42,591 bases of DNA, from IMG/VR virus record IMGVR_UViG_3300046004_001494, positions 1 to 42,591 of that record, one strand, 5' to 3'. Position 1 is the stretch's first letter; each line of letters begins with the position of its first letter. The stretch is from a virus. The position numbers and the translations under genes were made by a program. The notes under the pieces were generated by a model, which ran no database searches, was not told the origin of the DNA, and was given only the letters and a program-made list of their open reading frames with translations. This document shows, in pieces, positions 4,042 to 42,408 of this stretch.

Positions 4042-5646
4042 TTAAAGACATACACCAACACTACCATTTATTGTACCTACTGGAGTAATCCTTTGATTTG
4101 TTGTCAATGTATTGGTTAAGTCATCACAAAAAAGAGCATAATAATCACCATCACCAGTAAAAGTTATTGTACCTGCTGGATTTGTATAAATTTCTGAGGT
4201 AGTTGTTGCAGTAGTATTTCCTCCATCAATAGTAGTATTAGTGACATAAACTGTGTTTGAAATAGGAAGACTACAGGCATTAGACTCATCTGAAAGATTT
4301 GATATTAAAAATTCTTTCAACAATATTGCTGGTGGTTCAGAAGAAGACGGTGTTATACTAGGAGTAACACTTACTGTTATTGTAGGTGTTATACTAGGAG
4401 TAGACGAAATCGATATTGATGGTGTTACACTTGGTGTTGCACTAATTGAAATTGTAGGCGTTATACTAGGAGTAGACGAAATCGATATTGATGGTGTTAC
4501 ACTTGGTGTTGCACTAATTGAAATTGTAGGCGTTACACTAGGAGTAGCACTGATTGTTATTGACGGTGTTACACTTGGAGTAGACGAAATCGATATTGAC
4601 GGTGTTATACTAGGAGTAGACGAAATCGATATTGACGGTGTTATACTAGGAGTAGCACTTACTGAATTTCCTGGTGATGCACTAGGAGTAACACTTACTG
4701 AAATTGTTGGTGTTACACTAGGAGTAATAGTTACACTAGGAGTAACACTGACTGTTATAGATGGTGTTACACTAGGGGTAACAGTTACACTAGGAGTAAT
4801 AGTTACACTAGGAGTAACACTTATTGATGGTGTTACTGGATAAGAAGGACCAGCAGATGGGTTAATTAATTGATTTAAATTGCTATATTGGGTAGGTACT
4901 ACATCTTTAAATTCTAAATCAATATTAAAATTAGGTCCTTTTAAATAAGGTTGAGGTAAAGGAGTAATTACTTTACTTAAACTAAGGTCATAGATATAAG
5001 GATTAACTATCTCTTCTACAATCCAAAATTTATCTTTTAATGTAATATTAGATGGAAGTGCTTCGTATAATTTAAATAATAAACTTGCTTCTCCTAAAGC
5101 ATTTACTTCACTTAATACATTAACTGCTACTACTTGGTTATTATTACCAAAATTAAGTATAACGTAATAATAATAAGGAACAGCCAATTGCTTATCAGCA
5201 AAATTACTAGCAACATCAATTAAAGCAATATCATCTAACTCAGTAGAGCCTACTCTTAATTCAGTTCGGTCTGATGATATTTGGGATATAAAGAGTTGGG
5301 AACTAAAAGGCTCTCCTGATACTTTTCTAAAGAAATTATATCTAGAGGTAACTTCACCGGATTCATATCCTAAATTTTCAATATCCTGGATTGGGTCTAT
5401 TTCTAGTGTAGGGAGATAACTTTGGGAATAACCGTAATTTGAAGGTAATTTATATGAATTATAGTTATAATTTGAATTTAATACATTTCCTCCTAGATCA
5501 AATACAAAGTATTCAACATAGTCTTCTGGTTTCCCGAAGGTTTCTTGTTGTACAATAGGAAGAAGTAGTTGTTCATCCTGTAAATCATAACGATTTACTC
5601 GGCTTGTATCTAAAACTTGTCCTATTATTTTTATATTATCTGCCAT
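4042..5646 (-). CDS. Structural protein with Thr-Pro-Ser repeat region
   Basis: A 534-residue protein in three parts. Residues 1 to about 265 look like a folded virion domain (segments such as YYYYVILNFG). Residues about 275-435 are low-complexity 12-residue units of the type TPSVTPSISISS. The last 90 or so residues form a separate domain with Cys residues, ending GVCL. The proline-spaced Ser/Thr repeats suggest an extended linker or stalk holding the C-terminal domain off the particle; Ser/Thr glycosylation is possible but only inferred. It sits between the giant tail protein and a coiled-coil protein in the late block. Family not recognised. Confidence 0.85.
   Translation of the reverse strand: MADNIKIIGQVLDTSRVNRYDLQDEQLLLPIVQQETFGKPEDYVEYFVFDLGGNVLNSNYNYNSYKLPSNYGYSQSYLPTLEIDPIQDIENLGYESGEVTSRYNFFRKVSGEPFSSQLFISQISSDRTELRVGSTELDDIALIDVASNFADKQLAVPYYYYVILNFGNNNQVVAVNVLSEVNALGEASLLFKLYEALPSNITLKDKFWIVEEIVNPYIYDLSLSKVITPLPQPYLKGPNFNIDLEFKDVVPTQYSNLNQLINPSAGPSYPVTPSISVTPSVTITPSVTVTPSVTPSITVSVTPSVTITPSVTPTISVSVTPSASPGNSVSATPSITPSISISSTPSITPSISISSTPSVTPSITISATPSVTPTISISATPSVTPSISISSTPSITPTISISATPSVTPSISISSTPSITPTITVSVTPSITPSSSEPPAILLKEFLISNLSDESNACSLPISNTVYVTNTTIDGGNTTATTTSEIYTNPAGTITFTGDGDYYALFCDDLTNTLTTNQRITPVGTINGSVGVCL
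4340..4850. repeat. Tandem 36-base repeats inside the Thr-Pro-Ser gene
   Basis: Imperfect 36-base units, each coding 12 residues, with 72-base double units that recur identically (for example the stretch beginning near 4389 and again near 4461). The repeat keeps the antisense frame open at 4253-4843, which explains the spurious plus-strand ORF there. Such arrays vary in copy number between relatives by slippage or recombination. Confidence 0.85.
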
Positions 5647-5663
5647 TAACAGTTATTTGTTTA

Positions 5664-6014
5664 TTATATGTTTAAATTATTTTGAGCTAATGTTGTAACA
5701 GTGTTTACTTCAGCTTCTAATAATTGTTGTCTTAAATCTGTTATTTCCTGTAGCAAAGCCTGTACTTCAGCTTCATCGGCTAATTGCACATTTAAATACT
5801 CAGCTTCTCTTAATAAAATTGCTCTATGCGAATTTATATCACCTTCATTAGGTATAATAGGAAATAATTCATCATATAATTCAAAAAAGGCATCTACTGT
5901 TGTCTCAGGAATAACAATTGGAGGAGAATTTAATTCACTAAATTGTGTATTAATCACTCTAGTAAATGTCCCCTTATTGTAAATTAAATTCTGAACCGGA
6001 ATTATTTCAGCCAT
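5664..6014 (-). CDS. Small tail-associated protein with C-terminal coiled coil
   Basis: 116 residues. The N-terminal half reads as a small folded segment (VINTQFSELNSPPIVIPE). Residues about 70-105 form an amphipathic helix (LQEITDLRQQLLEAEV) likely to be a coiled coil. Its ATG at 6014 overlaps the stop of the upstream gene by one base (TAATG), so the two are translationally coupled. The position between a possible fibre protein and the repeat protein suggests a virion adaptor or trimerisation factor. Family not recognised. Confidence 0.8.
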   Translation of the reverse strand: MAEIIPVQNLIYNKGTFTRVINTQFSELNSPPIVIPETTVDAFFELYDELFPIIPNEGDINSHRAILLREAEYLNVQLADEAEVQALLQEITDLRQQLLEAEVNTVTTLAQNNLNI

Positions 6015-7150
6015 TATTTATTTATTTTAAAAATATAATCGTTATTATATATAACAGATGAACCATTACTAAATGTAGATTTAATCAATATTTTATAATA
6101 TCTTTCGGGTTGAAACCCAGCAGTGTATAACGTAAAAAAGTTCCCTGCGGTATCACAACTTATTTTGGTATGTTCTTCACTAAAATTTACAACATATTCT
6201 TCTGTGTCTAAATCCTGTATAGCATAATAAGAAGATGAAGGTAAAGCACTATTTAGAGTAAATACCGATTGGGTTGTAAATTGACGAGGAGGATAAATAG
6301 GTCGTGCATTTACTCTGAATTGGCATACATCATTTACATTATAAAACCCTACATTATTACCTAAAGTAACGGCTACATTTTGATCTCCTAATACAGATAA
6401 TGATCCCGTATTATAAACACTATCATCCCAACCAAATTCAAGTTGAGGAAGATATATAGTATGAGTGTCTTTAGAAAAAAATTTTAATGAATAAGAAGAC
6501 GAAGCATTAAATTCATACAGGTCTTCAAATTTTAATAGGAATCCATTATTCTCTAAAAAACCAGGAGTATTAAATGTCTCTACAATATCAGTAACATTTA
6601 TATTAGTATCTTTAGTAGTGTTTATTATAAACGATTGAGATCCAAAATATATATCCCACCAAACACCACCCCCAGGAGTATTAAAGTTAAAGGAAGCAGT
6701 AGTATCAGTAAAGAAACTAGAAGTAGGCCACGCATTACTGTTATCTCTATTATACCAATTACAATCTTGAGTATAAGGAGGATCATATAAATATCTTCCT
6801 GTTCCTGCTTGCCATGATTGTGAAGTTGCGTAGCAATATAAAGTATAATTATCTGGTAGGTTATATGCTTCTGCTATGAATAATTTTAAAGAGGCACTAT
6901 ACATTCCCGTAGGAGTAGATGGAGGAACAGGACCAACAACAGGGATAGTATTTGTATTAAAAATTAAAGCAGAAACTTCTAACATCTTATCAGAAGGAAA
7001 TTGAATTAATGTTCTAGATACTTGAGTATCACTATTTAAAGTAGGAACAGTATTCTTTACTTCTAATATAGAATCCAATCCTGTATTAAGATCAGGAAAT
7101 TCAGAATAGATAGTTGTGTCCTTTTCGGGAAATATTTTATAAACGGCCAT
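6014..7150 (-). CDS. Probable tail fibre or fibre-like structural protein
   Basis: 378 residues. The N-terminus (VYKIFPEKDTTIYSEFPDLN) resembles the opening of DNRLRE-type beta-sandwich modules, in which an atypical 'xKDTTIYS' strand comes first. The remainder is beta-rich with many aromatic residues. No signal peptide or membrane segment. It is preceded by a TATATTTATA box at 7168-7177, a candidate late promoter. The neighbours are baseplate proteins. Fibre or baseplate decoration is the likely role; the DNRLRE resemblance is by eye only. Confidence 0.75.
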   Translation of the reverse strand: MAVYKIFPEKDTTIYSEFPDLNTGLDSILEVKNTVPTLNSDTQVSRTLIQFPSDKMLEVSALIFNTNTIPVVGPVPPSTPTGMYSASLKLFIAEAYNLPDNYTLYCYATSQSWQAGTGRYLYDPPYTQDCNWYNRDNSNAWPTSSFFTDTTASFNFNTPGGGVWWDIYFGSQSFIINTTKDTNINVTDIVETFNTPGFLENNGFLLKFEDLYEFNASSSYSLKFFSKDTHTIYLPQLEFGWDDSVYNTGSLSVLGDQNVAVTLGNNVGFYNVNDVCQFRVNARPIYPPRQFTTQSVFTLNSALPSSSYYAIQDLDTEEYVVNFSEEHTKISCDTAGNFFTLYTAGFQPERYYKILIKSTFSNGSSVIYNNDYIFKINK

Positions 7151-32351: not shown

Positions 32352-33497
32352 TTAATGTGAATCTCCTACATCATTCTTCTCTCCGTAGATCAAATAGTCG
32401 GGATTGATTACCTTTGCTACTTTCTTTCTATCACCTGATGAATGTTTAATTACAATTCCTTCATGTGGTACTTTTGTTCCTTCAATGAAGTTGTTAAATG
32501 TAAACCTATCCTGTACTTCTTGATTCCAAAGTCCAAAATAAAGTACTTCAATATAAGGTAAGTCTAGTGAATGAAATGTACCGAAAGTACCAGCTGGTGA
32601 GTTGTAAGCACCTCTAATAGTTGTATCAAATCCTATAAATCTAATATCATCTAATCCATAGTCATAGTTCTTTTGAATACCTGCTCCATAAATTTCTCCA
32701 TAGATTACAAATCCACTTCCAATATCTACAAGACTAGCTACTCCATTTTTAACTTCATCCCAAAGCTTAGCTTTAATATCATACTTCTCAGCTATTGTTT
32801 TCCAAACATCTTCAGAATAAAATCCTTGAGAGTCAGATCCTTTCTCACAATTATGTGAACCGTAAATGTATTCATAGTCAATCCACTTATCAGCTAGTCT
32901 AAAGAATTTTTTTACTTTATCCCAGAATGACAATTTAGATTTTTTTACAATACCGTATCTAGCATTTGTACCATGAATCTTACGAGAAATCTCTACTGTA
33001 TCTTCTGGTGTAAACATTCCTTCAACGTTTTTAAGGTTTGGGAATTTGTAATAGATATGGAAGTTCTGATTGTCTCTCCATTTAATCTTTCTACCTGAAG
33101 CAAGTTGAATTTGTTTAACTGGTGGTTCGTATTTGATAATTCCTAAGAACTCCATACAGTCGCTTCCTTCTTTCAAATCAAAGTCACCCATAGTGGTTTT
33201 ACCACTAAGGTATTTCATTGGAATGATTAAACATTCAGAATAAACTCCTCTTAGTTTTACAGTTCTTACTCTACCTCCTTTTCTTAGGTAAGAAGTAACT
33301 CCCATTTCTTCAGAAAGTTTTTCTGGTATAACTGCATCAGTAGTTGCAATGATTGTCTCATCACCTACTTTAAATTCTCCTTTTCTAGTGATAGCATTCC
33401 ATCCACCTGCGATTACAAGTTCGATGTTATCAGCACCTTCGATTGCTTTTACTTCATTTATTTTTGCTATAAAGCAAACTGAATTATTGTTTTCCAT
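32352..33497 (-). CDS. RNA ligase, DraRnl/Rnl5 type
   Basis: 381 residues. Residues 1-120 form an N-terminal OB-like module (VKAIEGADNIELVIAGGWNA; TTDAVIPE) as in Deinococcus RNA ligase. The adenylyltransferase follows: motif I K173-IHG (lysine that takes AMP), motif III YIYGSHN (210-216), motif IV FVIYGEIYG (263-271), motif V EGIVIK (346-351). Such ligases seal 3'-OH/5'-phosphate nicks in RNA. It is the last gene of a repair operon with a kinase and phosphatases and probably repairs cleaved tRNA or mRNA. No motif is missing. Confidence 0.92.
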   Translation of the reverse strand: MENNNSVCFIAKINEVKAIEGADNIELVIAGGWNAITRKGEFKVGDETIIATTDAVIPEKLSEEMGVTSYLRKGGRVRTVKLRGVYSECLIIPMKYLSGKTTMGDFDLKEGSDCMEFLGIIKYEPPVKQIQLASGRKIKWRDNQNFHIYYKFPNLKNVEGMFTPEDTVEISRKIHGTNARYGIVKKSKLSFWDKVKKFFRLADKWIDYEYIYGSHNCEKGSDSQGFYSEDVWKTIAEKYDIKAKLWDEVKNGVASLVDIGSGFVIYGEIYGAGIQKNYDYGLDDIRFIGFDTTIRGAYNSPAGTFGTFHSLDLPYIEVLYFGLWNQEVQDRFTFNNFIEGTKVPHEGIVIKHSSGDRKKVAKVINPDYLIYGEKNDVGDSH

Positions 33498-33500
33498 TTT

Positions 33501-33884
33501 TTATAATTTTATTTCAAATCTATCTTTCATTTGTACTAATTTCTCTTCTGGTACTCCATGCTCATTTACTCCTCCATGTCTATTTTCTACAATCAAAGAA
33601 TAAACTCTGTATCCGTACTTTTCTGCTAAGTCAAAGTAGTAGTCCATTTCCCAAGTCTGAGTAAATGTATTTGATACTATTATTTTCTTAACATCATTTG
33701 TCATCCAAACTTTCGCAGTATTTTGACACCAAGCATGTGCATCTTTTAATTTAGAGGCATCAAATTCATACTTACCATTATATGTAAAATATTGGTCTGC
33801 TTCTATAGTCATATTTCCTAATGATTCTGCCAATGTTGATTTTCCTGATCCAGGTAATCCTCTTAATAAAAATAACTCTTTCAT
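33501..33884 (-). CDS. Polynucleotide kinase-like P-loop protein
   Basis: 127 residues with P-loop GLPGSGKST (9-17), an Asp near residue 30 (IEADQYF) that fits the general-base position, and the ending NEHGVPEEKLVQMKDRFE of NEDD4BP2-like/Pnk kinases. It lacks a fused phosphatase, which is encoded separately nearby. Expected reaction: ATP-dependent 5' phosphorylation of RNA ends before ligation. It starts 3 bases after the membrane gene and ends 3 bases before the ligase. Confidence 0.87.
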   Translation of the reverse strand: MKELFLLRGLPGSGKSTLAESLGNMTIEADQYFTYNGKYEFDASKLKDAHAWCQNTAKVWMTNDVKKIIVSNTFTQTWEMDYYFDLAEKYGYRVYSLIVENRHGGVNEHGVPEEKLVQMKDRFEIKL

Positions 33885-33887
33885 ATC

Positions 33888-34154
33888 TTATATTTTTATA
33901 ATATTAACTACTAATGCTCCAAGAGCGTAACCTAATGCTAAAGCAAAAGCCATTCTTATACGTTCATTCCAAAATTTAGATTCTACCATATAACCTGCAA
34001 ATGGTAAAGCTAAAAACGGGCCAATAAAAGCAAAGAATACCATCCCCATTGTATTGGCTTCTGCTGTAAAGCGAATATAGAACGTTGAACAAATCTCTAT
34101 AATTAAAGCACTTGTAAAAATTATTCCATATTTTATATTAGATTCTTTGCTCAT
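33888..34154 (-). CDS. Three-helix membrane protein in the repair operon
   Basis: 88 residues: YGIIFTSALIIEICSTFYI, MGMVFFAFIGPFLALPFAGY and MAFALALGYALGALVVNII. The start lies inside the 3' end of the phosphoesterase gene (17-base overlap). It could tether the operon's products to the membrane or be unrelated. Family not recognised. Confidence 0.76.
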   Translation of the reverse strand: MSKESNIKYGIIFTSALIIEICSTFYIRFTAEANTMGMVFFAFIGPFLALPFAGYMVESKFWNERIRMAFALALGYALGALVVNIIKI

Positions 34155-34788
34155 GGTGATCCTTTGGTAAGGCTAATTTTTTAATTGGACGATCTTTCAT
34201 TATCGATAATATCTCATTCATTGATAAAGGCTCTAAACCGTTTCCATCTACTCCAACATCCATTGCTTTACCATCTGCTAATCTTAGATGTGGTGGTAGA
34301 TGAACGTGACCATGTAAGTGAATTACTCCTTGGTTCATATCATGCCAGGACGCAATTGGATAGTGCATACAAACGAAAGTAAACTTTTCAGTTGTTGCTT
34401 TATTGATTGGTCTTTTTACTTCTAATCTCAAGTAGTTTTGTACTGAAGAAAATAATGATTGGATACCTTCTTTGTTTCTTTCAATGTGGTGATCGTGATT
34501 TCCAAATATCAAGTGAATATTTTTACAAAGTATTCTATCTCTAAATTCTTGTACTTTATCAAATCCTCCAAATGACCAATCTCCTAAGTGAATTAAGATA
34601 TCATCTTCACCAACCATACAATTAATGTTATTAATTAGAGTAGCATTCATATGATCAAGTGAATTGAATGTACGAGCGTATCCATCGTTCACAGACCAGT
34701 TTGTAGTAGCACTACAAATGTTTGAGTGAGCGTAATGTGTGTCTGATGTGAAGAACAATCTTTGTCCTTTTTCTAATGTAATTCTCAT
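34138..34788 (-). CDS. Calcineurin-like metallophosphoesterase
   Basis: 216 residues with the five metal-binding blocks in order: SDTHYAHSNI near residue 15, HLGDW near 67, FGNHDHHIE near 95, MHYPIA near 141 and HGHVH near 158. It is a phosphomonoesterase or phosphodiesterase; in this context it may process 2',3'-cyclic or 3' phosphate ends. First gene of the operon from the promoter at 34813; start has AAGGTTATG. Confidence 0.88.
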   Translation of the reverse strand: MRITLEKGQRLFFTSDTHYAHSNICSATTNWSVNDGYARTFNSLDHMNATLINNINCMVGEDDILIHLGDWSFGGFDKVQEFRDRILCKNIHLIFGNHDHHIERNKEGIQSLFSSVQNYLRLEVKRPINKATTEKFTFVCMHYPIASWHDMNQGVIHLHGHVHLPPHLRLADGKAMDVGVDGNGLEPLSMNEILSIMKDRPIKKLALPKDHHEQRI

Positions 34789-34812
34789 AACCTTATATTT
34801 TTAAATCTTTTA

Positions 34813-34844
34813 TAAAATTACAACCTATATACTTATAAGCCTAA
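34813..34844 (-). promoter_or_regulatory. Promoter, TTAG-N20-TAATTTTA
   Basis: TTAGG, 20 bases, TAATTTTATAAAAG, right after the stop of the gene at 34847. Confidence 0.72.
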
Positions 34845-34846
34845 TT

Positions 34847-35563
34847 TTAAATGAAATTTATTGTATTTGTTTCTTTATCCCAATCAAACGTCATTGGTTT
34901 TTGAGTGTATTCGTAAGCCTCGTCCAATACTGATGCATTGAAGAAGTGAGTACCATCTTTAAACTCATAACCATATCCTGAATGAATGTGACCACAGATG
35001 TGAATTTTTGGTTTTACGACTTCAATTCTTTGAGCTAATAACTCGCATCCTAATCCGTCCCAAGGTCTTCCTGCTACTGTATCTAAAGTTCCAAATGCAG
35101 GACCATGTGTGATAAGAATGTCTGTGTTGTTAGGAATACCTTCCCACTTACCTGCTATTTCAATTCCATTTTTTGGTAAATTGAATGCCCAAGAATAGAA
35201 TTCCGGTTGCCAAGGTGATCCGTAAATGCGAATGTTATTTTCAGGCATATCTCCATTTGGACCATCTCCATACAAAACTAACTCAGCATCTTGAAGGTAA
35301 TCGATTAGCGGATAATCTTTTAAGTATCCTTCTACTTCATGTGGTTCATTTTCAAATAAACGATCGTGATTACCTGCTATGAATACTTTATCTTCATATT
35401 GTTTCAATGATTGAAACCAGGTACAGAAACTATGAATATCATGTTTATTATACCCTGAGTTCATTAAATCTCCAGCATGGAGTAATAAATCTCCACCTGG
35501 TAGATCTTCCATAGGAATTAATCCATGTCTTGTATGTGTGTCTGATAATACTGTTATTCTCAC
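34847..35563 (-). CDS. Second metallophosphoesterase, MPPED-like
   Basis: 238 residues. SDTHTRHG at residue 7, LLLHAGDLMN, FIAGNHDRLF, ITHGPAFG and ICGHIHSGYG are the conserved blocks, and the arrangement with 'GSPWQPEF' in the centre is that of the MPPED1/2-like family. The start is GTG at 35563, one base after the upstream stop. Likely a cyclic nucleotide or RNA-end phosphodiesterase; substrate inferred from context. Confidence 0.88.
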   Translation of the reverse strand: MRITVLSDTHTRHGLIPMEDLPGGDLLLHAGDLMNSGYNKHDIHSFCTWFQSLKQYEDKVFIAGNHDRLFENEPHEVEGYLKDYPLIDYLQDAELVLYGDGPNGDMPENNIRIYGSPWQPEFYSWAFNLPKNGIEIAGKWEGIPNNTDILITHGPAFGTLDTVAGRPWDGLGCELLAQRIEVVKPKIHICGHIHSGYGYEFKDGTHFFNASVLDEAYEYTQKPMTFDWDKETNTINFI

Positions 35564-35564
35564 T

Positions 35565-35657
35565 TTATTCTGATCCTTTTTTTATTAAATAATACCACAA
35601 CCAAATAAATTTTGGTCTTATAAATTCATACCCTACCCAAATTAGAAAATATTTCAT
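35565..35657 (-). CDS. 30-residue hydrophobic peptide
   Basis: MKYFLIWVGYEFIRPKFIWL then WYYLIKKGSE. Start 1 base after the HAD stop and end 1 base before the GTG of the next gene, so it fills the gap exactly. Trp/Tyr-rich, probably membrane-associated. Function unknown. Confidence 0.6.
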   Translation of the reverse strand: MKYFLIWVGYEFIRPKFIWLWYYLIKKGSE

Positions 35658-35658
35658 T

Positions 35659-36210
35659 TTATTCTAAATATTGTAGTATTTGTTCTTTTATTCCTGACTG
35701 TTTTATTCCTTCAGTTGAACGAGGAGTTAAAACAAAATTCTCTAATCCATAACCTCCATTAAATTGTAGACTCATGTTTAAATCATCAATAGCTACCCAT
35801 TTATCAACTTGATTATTTTCTAACCATTCTTGGATTTCTAAGATTCTAATTTTCTCCAACCACCTTTTATACCAAAATAATTGAAAAGCACTATCATCAA
35901 AGTTTTTCAATAACGGAGTAAGTGCTATTGGTTTTTTTATTATCCCTTGTGATAAATAAAACTCTCCTAATTCCTCTAATGTAGCCCATGTTCTCCAATC
36001 TGAGGATATTACTATTTCTGCTCCTGTTTCTTCTAGGATTTGATTTAGTACTTTAATTGCTTTTTGGTCAAAGTTATCAAAACGAAGTTCAACAGGTAGA
36101 TCTTTGTCAGCAACAGTTTTAGCTATGCTTTTTGTCTGCTTTTTAAATCTACTACCCCAATTATTGGCTAGGCAGATTACTCCGTCATTATCTAGAAATA
36201 TTACTTTCAT
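35659..36210 (-). CDS. HAD phosphatase of RNA-repair type
   Basis: 183 residues. HAD motif I is FLDNDGV (Asp7, Asp9), motif II VISSDWR near residue 70, and motif III/IV the acidic KWVAIDDLNM near residue 140. The segment order fits the 'HAD domain in Swiss Army Knife RNA repair proteins'. Expected to remove 3' phosphates (or 2',3'-cyclic) from RNA ends so ligase can act. Overlaps the receiver-domain gene by ATGA. Confidence 0.86.
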   Translation of the reverse strand: MKVIFLDNDGVICLANNWGSRFKKQTKSIAKTVADKDLPVELRFDNFDQKAIKVLNQILEETGAEIVISSDWRTWATLEELGEFYLSQGIIKKPIALTPLLKNFDDSAFQLFWYKRWLEKIRILEIQEWLENNQVDKWVAIDDLNMSLQFNGGYGLENFVLTPRSTEGIKQSGIKEQILQYLE

Positions 36211-36617
36211 ACTGTATGTTCAATTTGTACTCTTACACAGTTTTGAGGTAATCTATGAATATGCCTGTAGTTGTTTATATATCCCATCATATTTGCACTA
36301 CCAACGGCATTTGCCGAATGTATTACAACATCAACAACACAAGCTCCATCCAACCATTGATTAACCAACCATTTTGTGCAATCCATTCCAGTCTTCTCTG
36401 TAATATTATCATAATTTAATTCGTAATTATGGTAAACATTCTTATGCCATTCAGCCATTGCTGAATCACCTAAATCGTGATCTAAAGAGATTACATCTAT
36501 GTTTTCCAACCTAATATAAGTAACAGTATCAACAAATTGTTCGTAGTTTCTTACTACAGTCCAAGATGGATCAACTGGTGTTCTTACATCATCTAAGTAT
36601 ATTTTAATCTTGCTCAT
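36207..36617 (-). CDS. Cyclic-phosphate-processing receiver-domain protein (cREC)
   Basis: 136 residues from MSKIKIYLDDVRTP at 36617; an upstream lysine-rich extension is the other frame of the preceding gene. Blocks: YLDDVRTP, WTVVRNYEQFV, ISLDHDLG near residue 60, GMDCTKWLVNQW, then VIHSANAVGSANMMGYI. These are the conserved features of the cREC family described in RNA-repair and conflict systems, thought to process cyclic-phosphate RNA ends. It sits directly before the HAD phosphatase, which supports that role. Confidence 0.87.
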   Translation of the reverse strand: MSKIKIYLDDVRTPVDPSWTVVRNYEQFVDTVTYIRLENIDVISLDHDLGDSAMAEWHKNVYHNYELNYDNITEKTGMDCTKWLVNQWLDGACVVDVVIHSANAVGSANMMGYINNYRHIHRLPQNCVRVQIEHTV

Positions 36618-39180: not shown

Positions 39181-39241
39181 GTTAGCAATAGCTAACCTAC
39201 ATTGGAGATGAAGGAATTGACCTCATATTGAATAAATTTAG
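39181..39241 (-). other. Hairpin and decayed tRNA 3' half
   Basis: GTTAGC-TATT-GCTAAC hairpin at 39181-39196, and beside it GAGG-TCAATTC-CTTC, a T arm with a loop one base off TTCAATTC, followed by a pyrimidine-rich 3' arm. No 5' half can be found within 100 bases, so it looks like a remnant. Confidence 0.4.
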
Positions 39242-39242
39242 T

Positions 39243-39315
39243 GTCCTATACAGGGCTCGAACCTGTGACCTTCTCGTTATGAGCGAGCTGCTCTGACCAA
39301 CTGAGCTAAAAGGAC
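39243..39315 (-). tRNA. tRNA-Met(CAT): tRNA with CAT anticodon (Met or Ile2)
   Basis: 73 nt. Acceptor GTCCTTT/ATAGGAC with one mismatch, D stem GCTC/GAGC, anticodon loop CTCATAA, T arm ACAGG-TTCGAGC-CCTGT. Elongator Met or lysidine-modified Ile cannot be separated by eye. No encoded CCA. Confidence 0.9.
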
Positions 39316-39324
39316 GATTTAGTA

Positions 39325-39395
39325 GCGGGTGAGGGACTCGAACCCCCGACCTTAAGCTTATGAGGCTCACGAGATACCAACTTCTACCAACCCGC
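39325..39395 (-). tRNA. tRNA-fMet(CAT): tRNA with CAT anticodon, initiator-like
   Basis: 71 nt. Anticodon loop CTCATAA, T arm GGGGG-TTCGAGT-CCCTC. If extended by one base at each end, position 1 (T) and 72 (T) do not pair, the hallmark of initiators, and the GTAGA...AGTTGGTA...AAGGTC string resembles bacterial fMet. The three GC pairs of the anticodon stem are absent, so an elongator is possible. Confidence 0.82.
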
Positions 39396-39399
39396 AATA

Positions 39400-39474
39400 T
39401 GGCGGTCCTAGAGGGAATCGAACCCTCATCATAAGCGTGACAAGCTTACATCCTAGCCGTTGAACGATAGGACC
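39400..39474 (-). tRNA. tRNA-Asp(GTC): tRNA-Asp(GTC)
   Basis: Acceptor GGTCCTA/TAGGACC perfect, anticodon loop TTGTCAC in a TAAGC/GCTTA stem, T arm GAGGG-TTCGATT-CCCTC. Discriminator G is followed by an encoded CCA, unlike the other tRNAs here. Confidence 0.93.
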
Positions 39475-39549
39475 AGTTACCTGTCTTTCCAAGTTGTCAA
39501 TCACTTACCTATTAGCCTCATAGGTCAATCCTCTTATGATCGATTTTGT

Positions 39550-39620
39550 GGAGCTATGGAGAATCGAACTCCAATTTATGATTTGCAAAACCATTGTAAT
39601 AGCCGTTATACTATAGCCCC
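39550..39620 (-). tRNA. tRNA-Ala(TGC): tRNA-Ala(TGC)
   Basis: Acceptor GGGGCTA/TAGCTCC with the G3:U70 wobble that marks alanine; loop TTTGCAA in ATGGT/ATCAT; T arm GGAG-TTCGATT-CTCC. The 75-base gap to the next tRNA holds an ACCTAT/ATAGGT hairpin with a seven-base loop. Confidence 0.9.
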
Positions 39621-39626
39621 AATTGT

Positions 39627-39697
39627 AGCCCCACCGGGAGTCGAACCCGACTTTCATGGATGAAAACCATGTGTCCTAACCGATAGACGATAGGGCC
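39627..39697 (-). tRNA. tRNA-Glu(TTC): tRNA-Glu(TTC)
   Basis: Acceptor GGCCCTA/TGGGGCT (wobbles at 1:72 and 6:67), anticodon stem CATGG/CCATG with loop TTTTCAT, T arm TCGGG-TTCGACT-CCCGG. Confidence 0.9.
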
Positions 39698-39704
39698 ATT
39701 TTGA

Positions 39705-39776
39705 GCGAATGGAGGGAATCGAACCCTCATCCCTTGATTGGAAGTCAAGAATAATTAGCCGTTATACGACATTCGC
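39705..39776 (-). tRNA. tRNA-Gly(TCC): tRNA-Gly(TCC)
   Basis: Acceptor GCGAATG/CATTCGC perfect, anticodon stem CTTGA/TCAAG with loop CTTCCAA, T arm GAGGG-TTCGATT-CCCTC. Confidence 0.93.
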
Positions 39777-39785
39777 AATTATTGA

Positions 39786-39858
39786 GCTCTCGGCCAGGAT
39801 CGAACTGGCTCTATTCCGGGTTACAAATCCGGTGCACCACCATTTGTGCGTCGAGAGC
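39786..39858 (-). tRNA. tRNA-Thr(TGT): tRNA-Thr(TGT)
   Basis: Acceptor GCTCTCG/CGAGAGC perfect, D stem GCAC/GTGC, loop TTTGTAA in a CCGG/CCGG stem with one mismatch, T arm GCCAG-TTCGATC-CTGGC. Confidence 0.93.
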
Positions 39859-39862
39859 AAGT

Positions 39863-39934
39863 AAATTAGAGTCGGTTTTCGTATCCGTTCTGCAGGTTAG
39901 CCCCTGCTGCTTTACTATAAGCTAACTCTAATTT
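39863..39934 (-). ncRNA. tRNA-like cloverleaf element A (no TTCGA)
   Basis: 72 nt closed by a perfect ten-pair stem (AAATTAGAGT/ACTCTAATTT). Inside, in tRNA order: TA, stem GCTT/AAGC, A, stem GCAGG/CCTGC with a GGCTAA loop, AGAA as variable loop, stem CGG/CCG with loop ATACGAAAA, then straight into the closing stem. D-loop GG and T-loop TTCGA are missing and no standard anticodon fits. Either a decayed tRNA kept in shape or a tRNA mimic. Confidence 0.6.
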
Positions 39935-39939
39935 TATCT

Positions 39940-40012
39940 GTAGGCGGCCAGGCGCTTGGCGTCCAATCCTTCTGCCCAATTAAGGAACCCATATCCGGTA
40001 ACCCGGTCCTAC
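39940..40012 (-). ncRNA. tRNA-sized structured element B
   Basis: 73 nt closed by GTAGG/CCTAC. Three inner hairpins: CCGG-GTTA-CCGG, TCCTT/AAGGA with a ten-base loop, and GCCA/TGGC. No T-loop motif. Lies 5 bases from element A and 6 from tRNA-Leu. Confidence 0.5.
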
Positions 40013-40018
40013 TATCGT

Positions 40019-40091
40019 ACCCAAGGCGAGACTCGAACTCGCAAAATCTAGATCCTAAGTCTAGCGCCTATACCAATTCGGCTACTCGGGC
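40019..40091 (-). tRNA. tRNA-Leu(TAG): tRNA-Leu(TAG) with short variable loop
   Basis: Acceptor GCCCGAG/CTTGGGT, Leu-like GCCGAATTGGTATAGGC D region, stem CTAGA/TCTAG with loop CTTAGGA, T arm GCGAG-TTCGAGT-CTCGC. The variable loop is only ATTTT, where bacterial Leu tRNAs have a long arm. Confidence 0.9.
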
Positions 40092-40185
40092 ATTTACCGC
40101 ATGTGCGGTCACTTATCAATCGGTAGCTCCCTCTCGATGTCCATCTGTGGGTGTAACACATTTGGTAGAAGGTCGAACCTTAAAT
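40092..40185 (-). other. Structured spacer, 94 nt
   Basis: Weak closing pair ATTTA/TAAAT with inner hairpins ACCGC/GCGGT, ATCG/CGAT and AAGG-TTCGA-CCTT (a five-base T-loop-like hairpin). No tRNA and no frame seen. Confidence 0.4.
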
Positions 40186-40187
40186 GA

Positions 40188-40256
40188 GGGCAAGGTAAGA
40201 ATCGAACTTACTCTGCGGAGTTTGCAATCCCGCCGGTCTCCATAACCATCCTGCCC
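40188..40256 (-). tRNA. tRNA-Cys(GCA): tRNA-Cys(GCA)
   Basis: Acceptor GGGCAGG/CTTGCCC, short D arm GGT/ACC, loop TTGCAAA in a stem with one mismatch, T arm GTAAG-TTCGATT-CTTAC. Confidence 0.9.
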
Positions 40257-40260
40257 ATTT

Positions 40261-40330
40261 ATCACCTAGCCTGACCTTCCAGACAGTACATGTCACAATT
40301 AATTTGGCGCCGTGTTATGTAGTAGGTGAT
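40261..40330 (-). ncRNA. tRNA-sized structured element C
   Basis: 70 nt closed by a perfect eight-pair stem ATCACCTA/TAGGTGAT. Inner arm TACAT/ATGTA with CAC/GTG inside and a CTG/CAG hairpin. No T-loop motif. It begins 3 bases after the stop of the gene at 40334. Confidence 0.5.
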
Positions 40331-40333
40331 TTA

Positions 40334-40519
40334 TTATTTTAAAATCCACTCAATCAGAGTATTCATTTTATATTGTTCTTCCCTTACTTTTATATGATCT
40401 TGAATATTGTCAATATTAATACCACTATATTTACTTGGGTTTTGAACCATATCATCCAAGTCTTCTGTATGCTTTAGCATCTCTTCGTACTTTTCTCTAA
40501 TTTGTTGTTCGGTTTTCAT
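40334..40519 (-). CDS. Small hypothetical protein in the tRNA array
   Basis: 61 residues, helical: KTEQQIREKYEEMLKHTEDL then NIQDHIKVREEQYKMNTLIE. Similar short 'EEQIR.KYEE' proteins occur in phages, function unknown. Promoter at 40536; structured element C follows its stop at once. Confidence 0.76.
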   Translation of the reverse strand: MKTEQQIREKYEEMLKHTEDLDDMVQNPSKYSGINIDNIQDHIKVREEQYKMNTLIEWILK

Positions 40520-40535
40520 ATCTCTTTATTATACT

Positions 40536-40567
40536 TAAATATACGAACAATATTTTTAATAACCAAT
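40536..40567 (-). promoter_or_regulatory. Promoter, ATTG-N20-TATATTTA
   Basis: ATTGG, 20 bases, TATATTTAAG; its -33 box overlaps the stop of the HNH gene. It may drive the array downstream to 39243 along with the small gene. Confidence 0.68.
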
Positions 40568-41073
40568 TAAAAGAATAAAAATGTTTCCCATTCTTTTGGA
40601 ACATATGTTAGTTGTTTCATAAGCATTAAGTAATGAGGTCTTTTTGGTTCTACTATTTCTTTACCATATTCCTCCAGTGTTAAATCTGCTTTTTGTGAAT
40701 TGCAACTTCTACATGCTGTTACTAAATTATCCCAAGCATTTGCTCCACCTTTTGATTGTGGAATAACGTGATCTAAAGTTAGTGATTTTAAATAACTTGA
40801 TCCACAATAAACACATTCATAGTTATCTCTTCGATAAACATTCTCTCTTGTTAGAGGAACTTTTTGAATGTTTTGTTTTACGTATTTGTAAACCCTAATG
40901 ATTGAAGGTTTAAAAATTTCTAGTTTTGGATTTACTAATCCGAATGTTTCTGGATGTTCAGCTATAACTTCTGCATTACCCTTATACGAAATCACGAAAG
41001 CTCTTTCGGTAGAGATAATGGATCTTGCCATAAAGCTTGAATCAATTACCAGTGTTCTTTGGTACTTACTCAT
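40567..41073 (-). CDS. HNH endonuclease
   Basis: 168 residues. The C-terminal half has the complete HNH core: YECVYCGSSY (zinc CxxC), LTLDHVIPQSKGGANAWDNL (catalytic Asp-His) and TACRSCNSQK (second CxxC). The N-terminal half (TLVIDSSFMARSIISTERAF, then YKGNAEVI) is the extra domain common in the free-standing bacterial HNH family. Position within a tRNA array suggests a mobile homing-type gene, though an intron is not evident. Alternative role: phage DNA processing. Confidence 0.9.
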   Translation of the reverse strand: MSKYQRTLVIDSSFMARSIISTERAFVISYKGNAEVIAEHPETFGLVNPKLEIFKPSIIRVYKYVKQNIQKVPLTRENVYRRDNYECVYCGSSYLKSLTLDHVIPQSKGGANAWDNLVTACRSCNSQKADLTLEEYGKEIVEPKRPHYLMLMKQLTYVPKEWETFLFF

Positions 41074-41079
41074 GATAAC

Positions 41080-41262
41080 TTATTTTAAAGGTTTGTATTG
41101 TGTTTTTCTGTTATACTTCCAGGTTCTGTATTCTCTGTACTTGAAGGCCCATATTCCGGATTTACATTTACTCCAATAGTCTTCAAACCACATTCCACCA
41201 TCTTTGGATTGTTTTCTTTTTTCTTTTTTATACTCTTTCTGAGTATGATTTTTGATTCTCAT
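41080..41262 (-). CDS. Small basic Trp/Tyr-rich protein
   Basis: 60 residues, very basic: RIKNHTQKEYKKEKRKQSKD then GGMWFEDYWSKCKSGIWAFK and YREYRTWKYNRKTQYKPLK. Perhaps nucleic-acid binding. Lies 6 bases before the HNH gene, same transcript. Family not recognised. Confidence 0.72.
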   Translation of the reverse strand: MRIKNHTQKEYKKEKRKQSKDGGMWFEDYWSKCKSGIWAFKYREYRTWKYNRKTQYKPLK

Positions 41263-41266
41263 TTTT

Positions 41267-41296
41267 ATGCATTTTAAGTTAATAAACTTAATGCAT
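41267..41296 (-). promoter_or_regulatory. Inverted repeat in the leader after tRNA-Trp
   Basis: TTAAGTT-TATT-AACTTAA flanked by matching ATGCAT palindromes, between the 3' end of tRNA-Trp and the start of the small basic gene. It could be an operator, a processing site or a weak terminator (no T run). Confidence 0.5.
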
Positions 41297-41329
41297 ATCG
41301 AATTTCTTTTTCATAATTAATAATTTTGC

Positions 41330-41399
41330 GCAGGCCGTAAGAATCGAACTTACCCGTAGCAGTTTTGGAGACCGTACCGACACCTTGTCTGTGACCCGC
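41330..41399 (-). tRNA. tRNA-Trp(CCA): tRNA-Trp(CCA)
   Basis: Acceptor GCGGGTC/GGCCTGC with wobbles, short D stem GAC/GTC, loop CTCCAAA, T arm GTAAG-TTCGATT-CTTAC. Anticodon CCA reads UGG only. Confidence 0.9.
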
Positions 41400-41407
41400 A
41401 TTTTTGA

Positions 41408-41478
41408 ACCCATACCTGGACTTGAACCAGGACTGAAACGTTAGAAGCGTTTAGTTCTTCCAATTAAACTATACGGGC
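41408..41478 (-). tRNA. tRNA-Arg(TCT): tRNA-Arg(TCT)
   Basis: Acceptor GCCCGTA/TATGGGT, stem AAACG/CGTTT with loop CTTCTAA, T arm CCTGG-TTCAAGT-CCAGG. Reads AGA/AGG, the common Arg codons of AT-rich genomes. Confidence 0.92.
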
Positions 41479-41482
41479 AAGT

Positions 41483-41637
41483 AAAATATAATTAGTAAGT
41501 TTTATCAGGAATCTGGGTTCTAATTTCTTAGTGCTTCACACACCATTAGAGAGTTGAGTATAAATACTTATCCTTAGTGTGTACCCTTGCGCAACGTCTC
41601 TCCACGTCTTCTTACCTACGCTTTGTAATTATATTTT
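41483..41637 (-). ncRNA. Structured element D, 155 nt
   Basis: Closed by a perfect twelve-pair stem (AAAATATAATTA/TAATTATATTTT) continued by GTAAG/CTTAC beyond a ten-base bulge. Inside are ACGT/ACGT, TTGCGCAA, AGTAT/ATACT, CTAA-GAAA-TTAG (GNRA tetraloop) and a CACAC/GTGTG long-range pair. No tRNA arms and no gene. It lies between two tRNA-Arg genes. Confidence 0.6.
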
Positions 41638-41639
41638 GA

Positions 41640-41710
41640 GGTCTTAGTAGGAGTCGAACCTACGTTCTATCGTTCGTAGCGATAAGTTTTTCCAATTAAA
41701 CTATAAGACC
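41640..41710 (-). tRNA. tRNA-Arg(ACG): tRNA-Arg(ACG)
   Basis: Acceptor GGTCTTA/TAAGACC perfect, stem TATCG/CGATA with loop CTACGAA, T arm GTAGG-TTCGACT-CCTAC. A34 would need deamination to inosine by a host enzyme. Confidence 0.93.
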
Positions 41711-41716
41711 AGTTGT

Positions 41717-41789
41717 GCCCCCAGTAGGACTCGAACCTACAGCTTACGGCGCTTAAAACCGTTGTGTTTACCAGTTTCACCATAGGGGC
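41717..41789 (-). tRNA. tRNA-Leu(TAA): tRNA-Leu(TAA) with short variable loop
   Basis: Acceptor GCCCCTA/TGGGGGC, Leu-like GTGAAACTGGTAAACAC D region, stem ACGGT/GCCGT with loop TTTAAGC, T arm GTAGG-TTCGAGT-CCTAC. Variable loop is about AAGCT, not a long arm. Confidence 0.9.
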
Positions 41790-41795
41790 ATTTTG

Positions 41796-41867
41796 GGTGT
41801 AAGAACGGTACCGCCCCATCTTCTCAAGATTCACAGTCTTGCGCTTCACTAAAAAGCTTCGAACACC
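41796..41867 (-). tRNA. tRNA-His(GTG): tRNA-His(GTG), degenerate T arm
   Basis: 72 nt. Anticodon arm is perfect (CAAGA-CTGTGAA-TCTTG) and the D stem GCTT/AAGC holds. Acceptor keeps five pairs (GGTGT/ACACC) followed by C as the discriminator, which is typical of tRNA-His. The D loop lacks GG and the T arm has no TTCGA; AAGA/TCTT may pair around GGTACC. It may be inactive. Confidence 0.6.
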
Positions 41868-41873
41868 ATATTG

Positions 41874-41943
41874 TACCGACTACAAGTTACGCTCTTGTCT
41901 GGGAATACTTATGAAATATTCTCGATCCTAGATCAAGTCGGTA
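41874..41943 (-). ncRNA. tRNA-like cloverleaf element E (no TTCGA)
   Basis: 70 nt closed by an eight-pair stem (TACCGACT/AGTCGGTA). In tRNA order: GATC-TAG-GATC, GAATA/TATTC with a nine-base loop, CCAG as variable loop, and ACAAG-AGCGTAA-CTTGT, a five-pair arm with a seven-base loop running directly into the closing stem. This is the best non-canonical cloverleaf in the window. No T-loop or D-loop consensus. Confidence 0.65.
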
Positions 41944-42081
41944 GTTTGATAAGAACCCGTTAACTTATCTTTGTGCTTAAGATTTTATTTATCAGTGTCC
42001 CACCACTATCCGCCCCGATTGCACATTCAACTCCTGTGTTCCTTAAACACGTTATGAGGACAGGGACCAGGTTTTTAAAGA
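41944..42081 (-). ncRNA. Structured spacer including element F
   Basis: GATAAG/CTTATC hairpin at 41948-41969, then a 71-nt element (41997-42067) closed by GTCCC/GGGAC with a TCCT/AGGA and GTGTT/AACAC arm and a TTG/CAA hairpin. No T loop. tRNA-sized but less convincing than A and E. Confidence 0.42.
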
Positions 42082-42165
42082 GGAAAGAATCAGAATCGAA
42101 CTGAATCCGGTTACCCGAACGCCTCGCTTAGCAGGCGGACTCAACACCATGTTGATTTACTTTCC
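42082..42165 (-). tRNA. tRNA-Ser(GCT): tRNA-Ser(GCT)
   Basis: 84 nt class II. Acceptor GGAAAG/CTTTCC, D arm TCAAC/GTTGA, loop CTGCTAA in a stem with one mismatch, long variable arm CGG-GTAA-CCG, T arm with TTCGATT. The variable arm is kept here but not in Leu and Tyr. Confidence 0.88.
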
Positions 42166-42172
42166 ATTTTGT

Positions 42173-42245
42173 AGGTAATATAGGAATCGAACCTATAACC
42201 TCTCACGTATCAGGCGAGTGCTCTAACCAATTGAGCTAATTACCT
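42173..42245 (-). tRNA. tRNA-Ile(GAT): tRNA-Ile(GAT)
   Basis: Acceptor AGGTAAT/ATTACCT perfect, D stem GCTC/GAGC, stem CTCGC/GTGAG with loop CTGATAC, T arm ATAGG-TTCGATT-CCTAT. Confidence 0.93.
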
Positions 42246-42254
42246 ATTTTTGCT

Positions 42255-42326
42255 GGTCTGACAGGACTCGAACCTGCTATCCTAGGTTTAACAAACCTCC
42301 GCTATATACCTCTTAAGCTTCAGACC
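42255..42326 (-). tRNA. tRNA-Asn(GTT): tRNA-Asn(GTT)
   Basis: Acceptor GGTCTGA/TCAGACC perfect, loop TTGTTAA in GAGGT/ACCTA (one mismatch), T arm GCAGG-TTCGAGT-CCTGT. Confidence 0.9.
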
Positions 42327-42336
42327 AATTTATTGT

Positions 42337-42408
42337 GGACCCTGTAGGAATCGAACCTACTCCTCTAGTTCTTCAGACTAGCGTACGCACCAGCTATACA
42401 AAAGGTCC
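42337..42408 (-). tRNA. tRNA-Phe(GAA): tRNA-Phe(GAA)
   Basis: Acceptor GGACCTT/AGGGTCC, stem CTAGT/ACTAG with loop CTGAAGA, T arm GTAGG-TTCGATT-CCTAC. Confidence 0.93.

Follow-up and report, generated by a model that had tools for sequence, protein, structure and literature searches.

Can a large phage mend RNA that its host has cut, and which enzymes would it use? The question is raised by a run of minus-strand genes in the IMG/VR virus record IMGVR_UViG_3300046004_001494. Positions 1 to 42,591 of this record were analysed; this stretch of 42,591 bases, called here the window, comes from a large-phage contig of 165,861 bp, to which it is identical wherever the two were compared. An earlier note on this DNA had placed six enzyme genes there, encoding an RNA ligase, a P-loop kinase, two metallophosphoesterases (MPE1 and MPE2), a HAD phosphatase and a cREC protein, and all six were located on the minus strand (Table 1). 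The note read them as a set that heals and seals broken RNA. Family searches bear that reading out, as do the conservation of catalytic residues and the gene neighbourhoods of many other phage contigs, but the six genes do not form one conserved cassette. The island is probably an RNA healing-and-sealing module, with ligase, kinase and MPE1 as its core and cREC, HAD and MPE2 as accessories, and it probably serves to reverse host tRNA cleavage.

Ligase and kinase

The ligase combines an OB domain (PF21189, E 1e-13) with a nucleotidyltransferase domain (PF09414, E 1e-10), and its best family is phrog_968, an RNA ligase family matched over the full length of the protein (E 2e-50). The earlier note had credited it with all nucleotidyltransferase motifs; motifs I, III, IV and V are indeed kept, with K173, H175, G176, E268, G271, E346, G347 and K362 unchanged throughout an alignment of 25 relatives. 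The OB domain (residues 10-128) shows homology to its counterpart in the Naegleria ligase NgrRnl (5cot; E 1.5e-11, or 2.5e-20 with a profile), and this N-terminal domain is shared with the Rnl5-type ligases, which include NgrRnl and Deinococcus DRB0094. The phage enzyme differs from them in its membership of phrog_968, in its motif I (K173-I-H-G-T-N, unlike the K-x-D-G of Rnl5-type ligases) and in its score with TIGR02306 (RNA_lig_DRB0094), which spans residues 10-368 at 98.5 bits and does not reach the equivalog cut-off of 151. The proposed assignment to Rnl5 thus holds for the OB domain, which is of the NgrRnl/DraRnl type, but not for the equivalog; given the low score and the KIHGTN motif, "Rnl5-like" is a fair description and "Rnl5" is not proven.

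The kinase matches the Pfam family AAA_33 (E 2e-11) and the polynucleotide kinase family phrog_505 (E 2e-7). A PDB search with the single sequence gave nothing useful, and a family profile was needed to detect the resemblance of positions 1-100 to the kinase domain of T4 Pnk (1ly1, E 4e-4; 1ltq, E 5e-4). The P-loop (G12-x-G14-K15-S16), D30 and R122 are conserved in an alignment of relatives. The C-terminal HAD 3'-phosphatase domain that is fused to the T4 kinase is missing from this 127-amino-acid protein, and the HAD is encoded by a separate gene. Since T4 Pnk and this kinase are relatives, the earlier statement that the enzymes belong to families different from those of T4 does not apply to all of them. 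Homologues about 50% identical occur in phages of Pseudomonas, Aeromonas and Vibrio, and several of their genes overlap an annotated RNA ligase gene; one example is Pseudomonas phage Pyxpy02 (54% identical), which also has a calcineurin-like phosphoesterase gene nearby.

Phosphoesterases, HAD phosphatase and cREC

The two phosphoesterases, MPE1 and MPE2, differ from each other, are both calcineurin-like and both match PF00149. MPE1 also matches phrog_547 (E 7e-43), and its metal ligands D16, H18, D70, N97, H98, H142, H161 and H163 are invariant among relatives. The calcineurin-like pattern of metal ligands (D-x-H, GD, GNH[DE], H, GHxH) is present in both proteins, in MPE2 by way of its match to the MPPED2 structure 3rl4 (E 5e-36). 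MPE2 is also strongly matched by the PADLOC candidate defence family PDC-S10 (E 1.5e-67).

The HAD and cREC assignments were both upheld by scores well above the Pfam cut-offs. The HAD protein matches PF18143 (HAD_SAK_2) at E 1e-22 and 81 bits, against a gathering cut-off of 27.5, and keeps D7-x-D9, S70, K92 and D142-D143 invariant; cREC matches PF20274 at E 1e-21 and 77.9 bits, against a cut-off of 27, with D9-D10, D46-H47-D48, S101 and N103 invariant. Across the alignments as a whole, which held 25-33 relatives, ligase, kinase, MPE1, HAD and cREC show little or no variation at their catalytic residues. The AlphaFold2 model of the HAD protein has a predicted confidence (pLDDT) of about 95 and gives weak matches to HAD-phosphatase folds with many substrates, T4 Pnk and Pnkp1 standing lower in the list; a profile search against PDB sequences returned only spurious repeat-protein matches. 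The AlphaFold model of cREC has a similar confidence (about 95), and the closest solved structures are mostly Receiver domains, all at E >0.02. This widespread domain is predicted to hydrolyse cyclic phosphates (PMC7824862, PMC9503650), with cyclic ADP-ribose (cADPr) or 2',3'-cyclic nucleotides as the predicted substrates (PMC7824862); its predicted action is cyclic-phosphate opening on RNA or on derivatives of ADP-ribose (ADPr).

Linkage and co-occurrence in related phages

Linkage was analysed in 80 viral loci with a relative of the ligase at 65-100% identity, of which 44 have 6 kb on both flanks. Within 6 kb of the ligase gene, the kinase was found in 41 of the 44 and MPE1 in 31; the strand was the same in every case, although the gene order varied. 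The corresponding counts were 17 for MPE2, 15 for cREC and 9 for HAD, compared with 20 and 12 for two neutral neighbours, p205 and p303. Relative to p205, the kinase is clearly more frequent (p 1e-6), MPE1 modestly so (p 0.03), cREC and MPE2 no more frequent and HAD less frequent, with p-values that are optimistic because some loci are near-duplicates. The tightest arrangement is that of locus L178, where MPE1 (4377-5036), kinase (5043-5453) and ligase (5460-6602) are directly contiguous. A single cassette of all six genes was rejected on these counts, and what stands of the proposed island is a linked core of ligase, kinase and MPE1, with cREC, HAD and MPE2 loosely placed.

Co-occurrence across whole contigs adds a different kind of evidence. 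Among ligase-bearing contigs of at least 100 kb, 17 of 20 carry cREC and 11 of 20 carry HAD, and of the large contigs that bear HAD, 17 of 23 carry cREC; among 39 random viral contigs (1.9 Mb), neither cREC nor HAD above cut-off was found in any. After near-identical ligase contigs were collapsed, cREC was present in 12 of 15, versus none of the 7 background contigs of at least 80 kb (Fisher p 7e-4). The background was a random 14-mer sample, and a within-family control with a baseplate gene was dropped for having too few long contigs. Taken with the linkage counts, this co-occurrence argues that cREC and the ligase go with the same phages, without having to be adjacent.

Parts of the set recur in other loci, in some of them beside another ligase. 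The orthologous cREC gene in L144 overlaps the end of a gene for a different, KLDG-type Rnl5-like ligase, and MPE1 lies in the same run, as does an enzyme of the PolyA_pol/CCA-adding type (L144:7667-8404, 245 amino acids). MPE1 adjoins a different ligase in L447, and cREC, kinase and MPE1 are clustered in L446. Of the contextual arguments for a shared action on RNA ends, the strongest is that the ligase is exchanged with cREC and MPE1 remaining in place. The PolyA_pol/CCA-adding-type enzyme occurs near cREC in 16 of the 80 loci and in 7 of 18 ligase-bearing contigs searched, and was not found in the window's parent contig; where present, it is a possible partner that would rebuild the tRNA 3' end. 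A fused Pnkp-like protein was also considered, since the 737-amino-acid "RNA ligase" family phrog_8238 matches both kinase and MPE1, and long ligase open reading frames did not confirm it. In two HAD-bearing contigs, such reading frames (L444:682-2658, 658 amino acids; L445:2015-4018, 667 amino acids) have a ligase-like N-terminal domain and a nucleotidyltransferase-looking C-terminal tail with the motif GRFQPFHNGH, rather than a kinase-MPE-ligase fusion.

A proposed repair pathway

From these parts we infer an order of reactions and a division of labour. The initial cut would be made by a metal-independent RNase (most probably a tRNA-cleaving defence or toxin nuclease of the host) and would leave a 2',3'-cyclic phosphate and a 5'-OH. 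The cyclic phosphate would be opened by cREC and/or a metallophosphoesterase (MPE1, perhaps MPE2), the 3' phosphate would be removed by HAD and/or MPE1, and the 5'-OH would be phosphorylated by the Pnk-like kinase. The OB-fold ligase could then join the 3'-OH to the 5'-phosphate via lysyl-AMP and AppRNA intermediates. The core of this process would consist of ligase, kinase and MPE1, with cREC, HAD and MPE2 as modular accessory end-processors. The proposed steps are redundant at the 3' end, perhaps because the substrates differ.

That tRNA is the substrate we infer from the T4 precedent and from the roughly 20 phage tRNAs beside the island. The number given in the earlier note proved accurate: the window holds 16 tRNAs (15 found by ARAGORN, plus a tRNA-Asn with anticodon GTT that default ARAGORN missed and that both Rfam and ARAGORN at a lowered threshold detected), and the cluster continues past the window into the parent contig with four more (Val, Pro, Gln, Ser). 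Most amino acids are covered, but the stretch searched, parent contig included, yielded no tRNA-Lys, -His, -Trp or -Tyr. An HNH endonuclease gene (40567-41073) lies inside the cluster. Anticodon loops are a putative site of damage and PrrC-like nucleases putative opponents, and repair together with phage-borne tRNAs would sustain translation during host self-attack.

Published contexts of cREC contain RNA ligases or enzymes of nicotinamide adenine dinucleotide (NAD) and ADPr metabolism, mainly the latter (PMC7824862, PMC9503650). KptA (PF01885), SIR2 (PF02146) and Macro (PF01661) were found in none of 19 related contigs, the parent contig and Flavobacterium phage immuto included, and control genomes were positive. 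An NAD-dependent repair route of the V5/Mydo/SP15 type was therefore rejected for these phages, and cREC is not tied here to a phage NAD route; within the phage its partner chemistry is RNA-end chemistry, and host-made ADPr signals may still be among its targets. A bolder proposal, which we hold only tentatively and consider rather doubtful, is that of a self-contained, NAD-independent RNA repair built from single-domain parts, with cREC as the dedicated opener of 2',3'-cyclic phosphates, the Swiss-Army-Knife (SAK) HAD as 3'-phosphatase, a solitary Pnk kinase as healer of the 5' end, and a ligase of the OB-fold, Rnl5/Rnl2-like kind as sealer. If true, such a pathway would be a setting that separates the predicted activity of cREC from ADP-ribose chemistry. 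Phages that have cREC with ligase, kinase and phosphatases and lack the three NAD-linked families offer a clean natural setting for the RNA-end hypothesis.

Alternative functions

Several points weigh against a single RNA repair pathway. The ligase falls short of the TIGR02306 cut-off, and its nearest characterised relative, NgrRnl, is described as nick-sealing in the title of a work cited in PMC9931718; on that description, sealing of anticodon loops by the phage ligase cannot be assumed, and the substrate may also be gapped or ribosome-held. The enzymatic role of cREC is a published prediction (PMC9503650), and cREC, MPE2 and HAD show no tighter linkage to the ligase than do neutral genes such as p205. 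The co-occurrence statistics are drawn from a small background (1.9 Mb, with 7 contigs of at least 80 kb) and from related contigs that are not independent. Finally, the complete 160-kb genome of phage immuto (MW353176.1), the nearest named relative in the phage collection (27% of a 5.1-kb query aligned, at about 81% DNA identity), has cREC, MPE1 and MPE2, and no PF09414 ligase was found in it. These three proteins can thus serve without such a ligase, which weakens the claim of a single pathway.

Some of these facts lend weight to a division into two functions, in which ligase, kinase and MPE1 repair RNA while cREC, MPE2 and perhaps HAD share the auxiliary region and degrade host immune signals (cyclic nucleotides, ADPr derivatives) or salvage nucleotides. 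This explanation is unlikely, yet it is the one to be taken most seriously. It would account for the unspecific linkage of the three genes and for the ligase-free set in immuto, and it suits both MPE2, which resembles MPPED2, a phosphodiesterase class, and matches PDC-S10, and cREC, whose predicted substrates include cADPr. The genome-wide co-occurrence of cREC with the ligase and the overlap of its ortholog with another RNA ligase gene in L144 argue the other way, as does the lack of KptA, SIR2 and Macro, which leaves no phage-made ADPr pathway and only host-made signals as possible targets.

Pnk-type kinases can phosphorylate DNA too, and the HAD and MPE folds are promiscuous, as the weak, many-substrate structural matches of the HAD model illustrate. 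It is nevertheless very improbable that kinase and phosphatases act on DNA ends or deoxynucleoside monophosphates with the ligase assisting DNA repair: the ligase falls in RNA ligase families, separate DNA ligases (PF01068) are encoded near some of the related loci, the names of PF18143 and PF20274 refer to RNA repair and to cyclic phosphates, and related clusters contain the tRNA-end polymerase-type gene. Only slightly better are the chances that the enzymes process the phage's own RNA, in a regulated maturation or circularisation of transcripts or tRNAs rather than in repair of host-inflicted damage. That idea would fit the position of the tRNA cluster, with its HNH endonuclease gene, <2 kb upstream of the first gene in the island, and it calls for a phage RNase that makes 5'-OH ends; none was seen among the genes searched. 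Repair of host-cleaved RNA by a core of ligase, kinase and MPE1 remains the preferred reading.

Relationship to known systems

The island shares with the T4 Pnk/Rnl1 system a 5'-OH kinase domain of the same family, a 3'-end phosphatase, an ATP-dependent 5'-3' RNA ligase and phage-borne tRNAs. It differs in that the kinase is a single-domain protein without a fused HAD, the ligase is of the OB-fold, Rnl5/Rnl2-like kind and not Rnl1, and cREC, SAK-HAD and two metallophosphoesterases are added. The bacterial Pnkp1-Rnl-Hen1 complex likewise uses separate subunits for healing (kinase/phosphatase) and ligation (PMC4411300), whereas the phage proteins are single-domain, the ligase is OB-fold and Rnl5-like, and none of the island genes was recognised as Hen1-type. 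Also close are the cREC/SAK-HAD neighbourhoods of jumbo and medium-sized phages, for example of the V5/Mydo type, in which cREC lies beside RNA ligases with a solo SAK-HAD, a nucleotide kinase, a calcineurin-like phosphoesterase and many tRNAs, and for which the same role was predicted (PMC7824862, PMC9503650). The present island lacks sirtuin, KptA and Macro (in 19 related contigs), has another ligase family, and brings cREC, SAK-HAD, kinase and two MPEs together in one run. The components and their role were predicted as a class in 2021-2022, and the island is a variant of that class, with an OB-fold ligase, a solo Pnk-like kinase, two MPEs, SAK-HAD and cREC, and without the NAD arm. The small single-domain kinase, ligase and phosphatase should be useful for probing how phages reverse host tRNA cleavage, and possibly as tools for RNA ends.

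Organisation of the locus

On the minus strand, from 37364 to 31936, the gene order is p205, p51, cREC, HAD, MPE2, MPE1, the 88-amino-acid protein, kinase, ligase and p136, with neighbours overlapping or less than 100 bases apart. cREC overlaps the start of HAD by 4 nucleotides, and 3 nucleotides separate kinase and ligase. The island had been described as a few consecutive operons. One tight same-strand run is what is seen, with no terminator-like site between p205 and p136 and the closest upstream one at 37616-37593, but the operon borders are not established, because promoter and terminator scans stayed at the level of shuffled sequence and terminator-like sites were no commoner than in shuffles.

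Table 1. Positions of the island genes and neighbouring features in the window
Feature	Position	Strand	Remarks
ATP-dependent RNA ligase, 381 amino acids	32352..33497	minus	PF21189 OB N-terminal + PF09414 nucleotidyltransferase
P-loop kinase, 127 amino acids, T4 Pnk kinase-domain relative, predicted RNA 5'-OH kinase	33501..33884	minus	
Small hydrophobic protein, 88 amino acids	33888..34154	minus	Overlaps MPE1 gene; seldom kept in relatives
MPE1, calcineurin-like phosphoesterase (phrog_547); predicted 2',3'-cyclic phosphodiesterase and/or 3'-phosphatase	34138..34788	minus	
MPE2, MPPED1/2-like metallophosphoesterase	34847..35563	minus	GTG start
HAD phosphatase, Swiss-Army-Knife RNA repair family (PF18143)	35659..36210	minus	
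cREC (PF20274), predicted cyclic-phosphate processing Receiver-like domain	36207..36617	minus	
p51, short open reading frame, 51 amino acids	36604..36759	minus	Overlaps cREC start
p205, uncharacterised protein, 205 amino acids	36747..37364	minus	Upstream of cREC; neutral-neighbour control
tRNA cluster	39241..42408	minus	14 ARAGORN tRNAs + tRNA-Asn 42253-42327

The p205 gene has no Pfam match, is found no more than 3.5 kb from cREC in 38 of the 80 loci and is also present in immuto. The immuto genome carries, in addition, annotated genes of a queuosine/7-deazaguanine pathway with a DpdA-type DNA transglycosylase.

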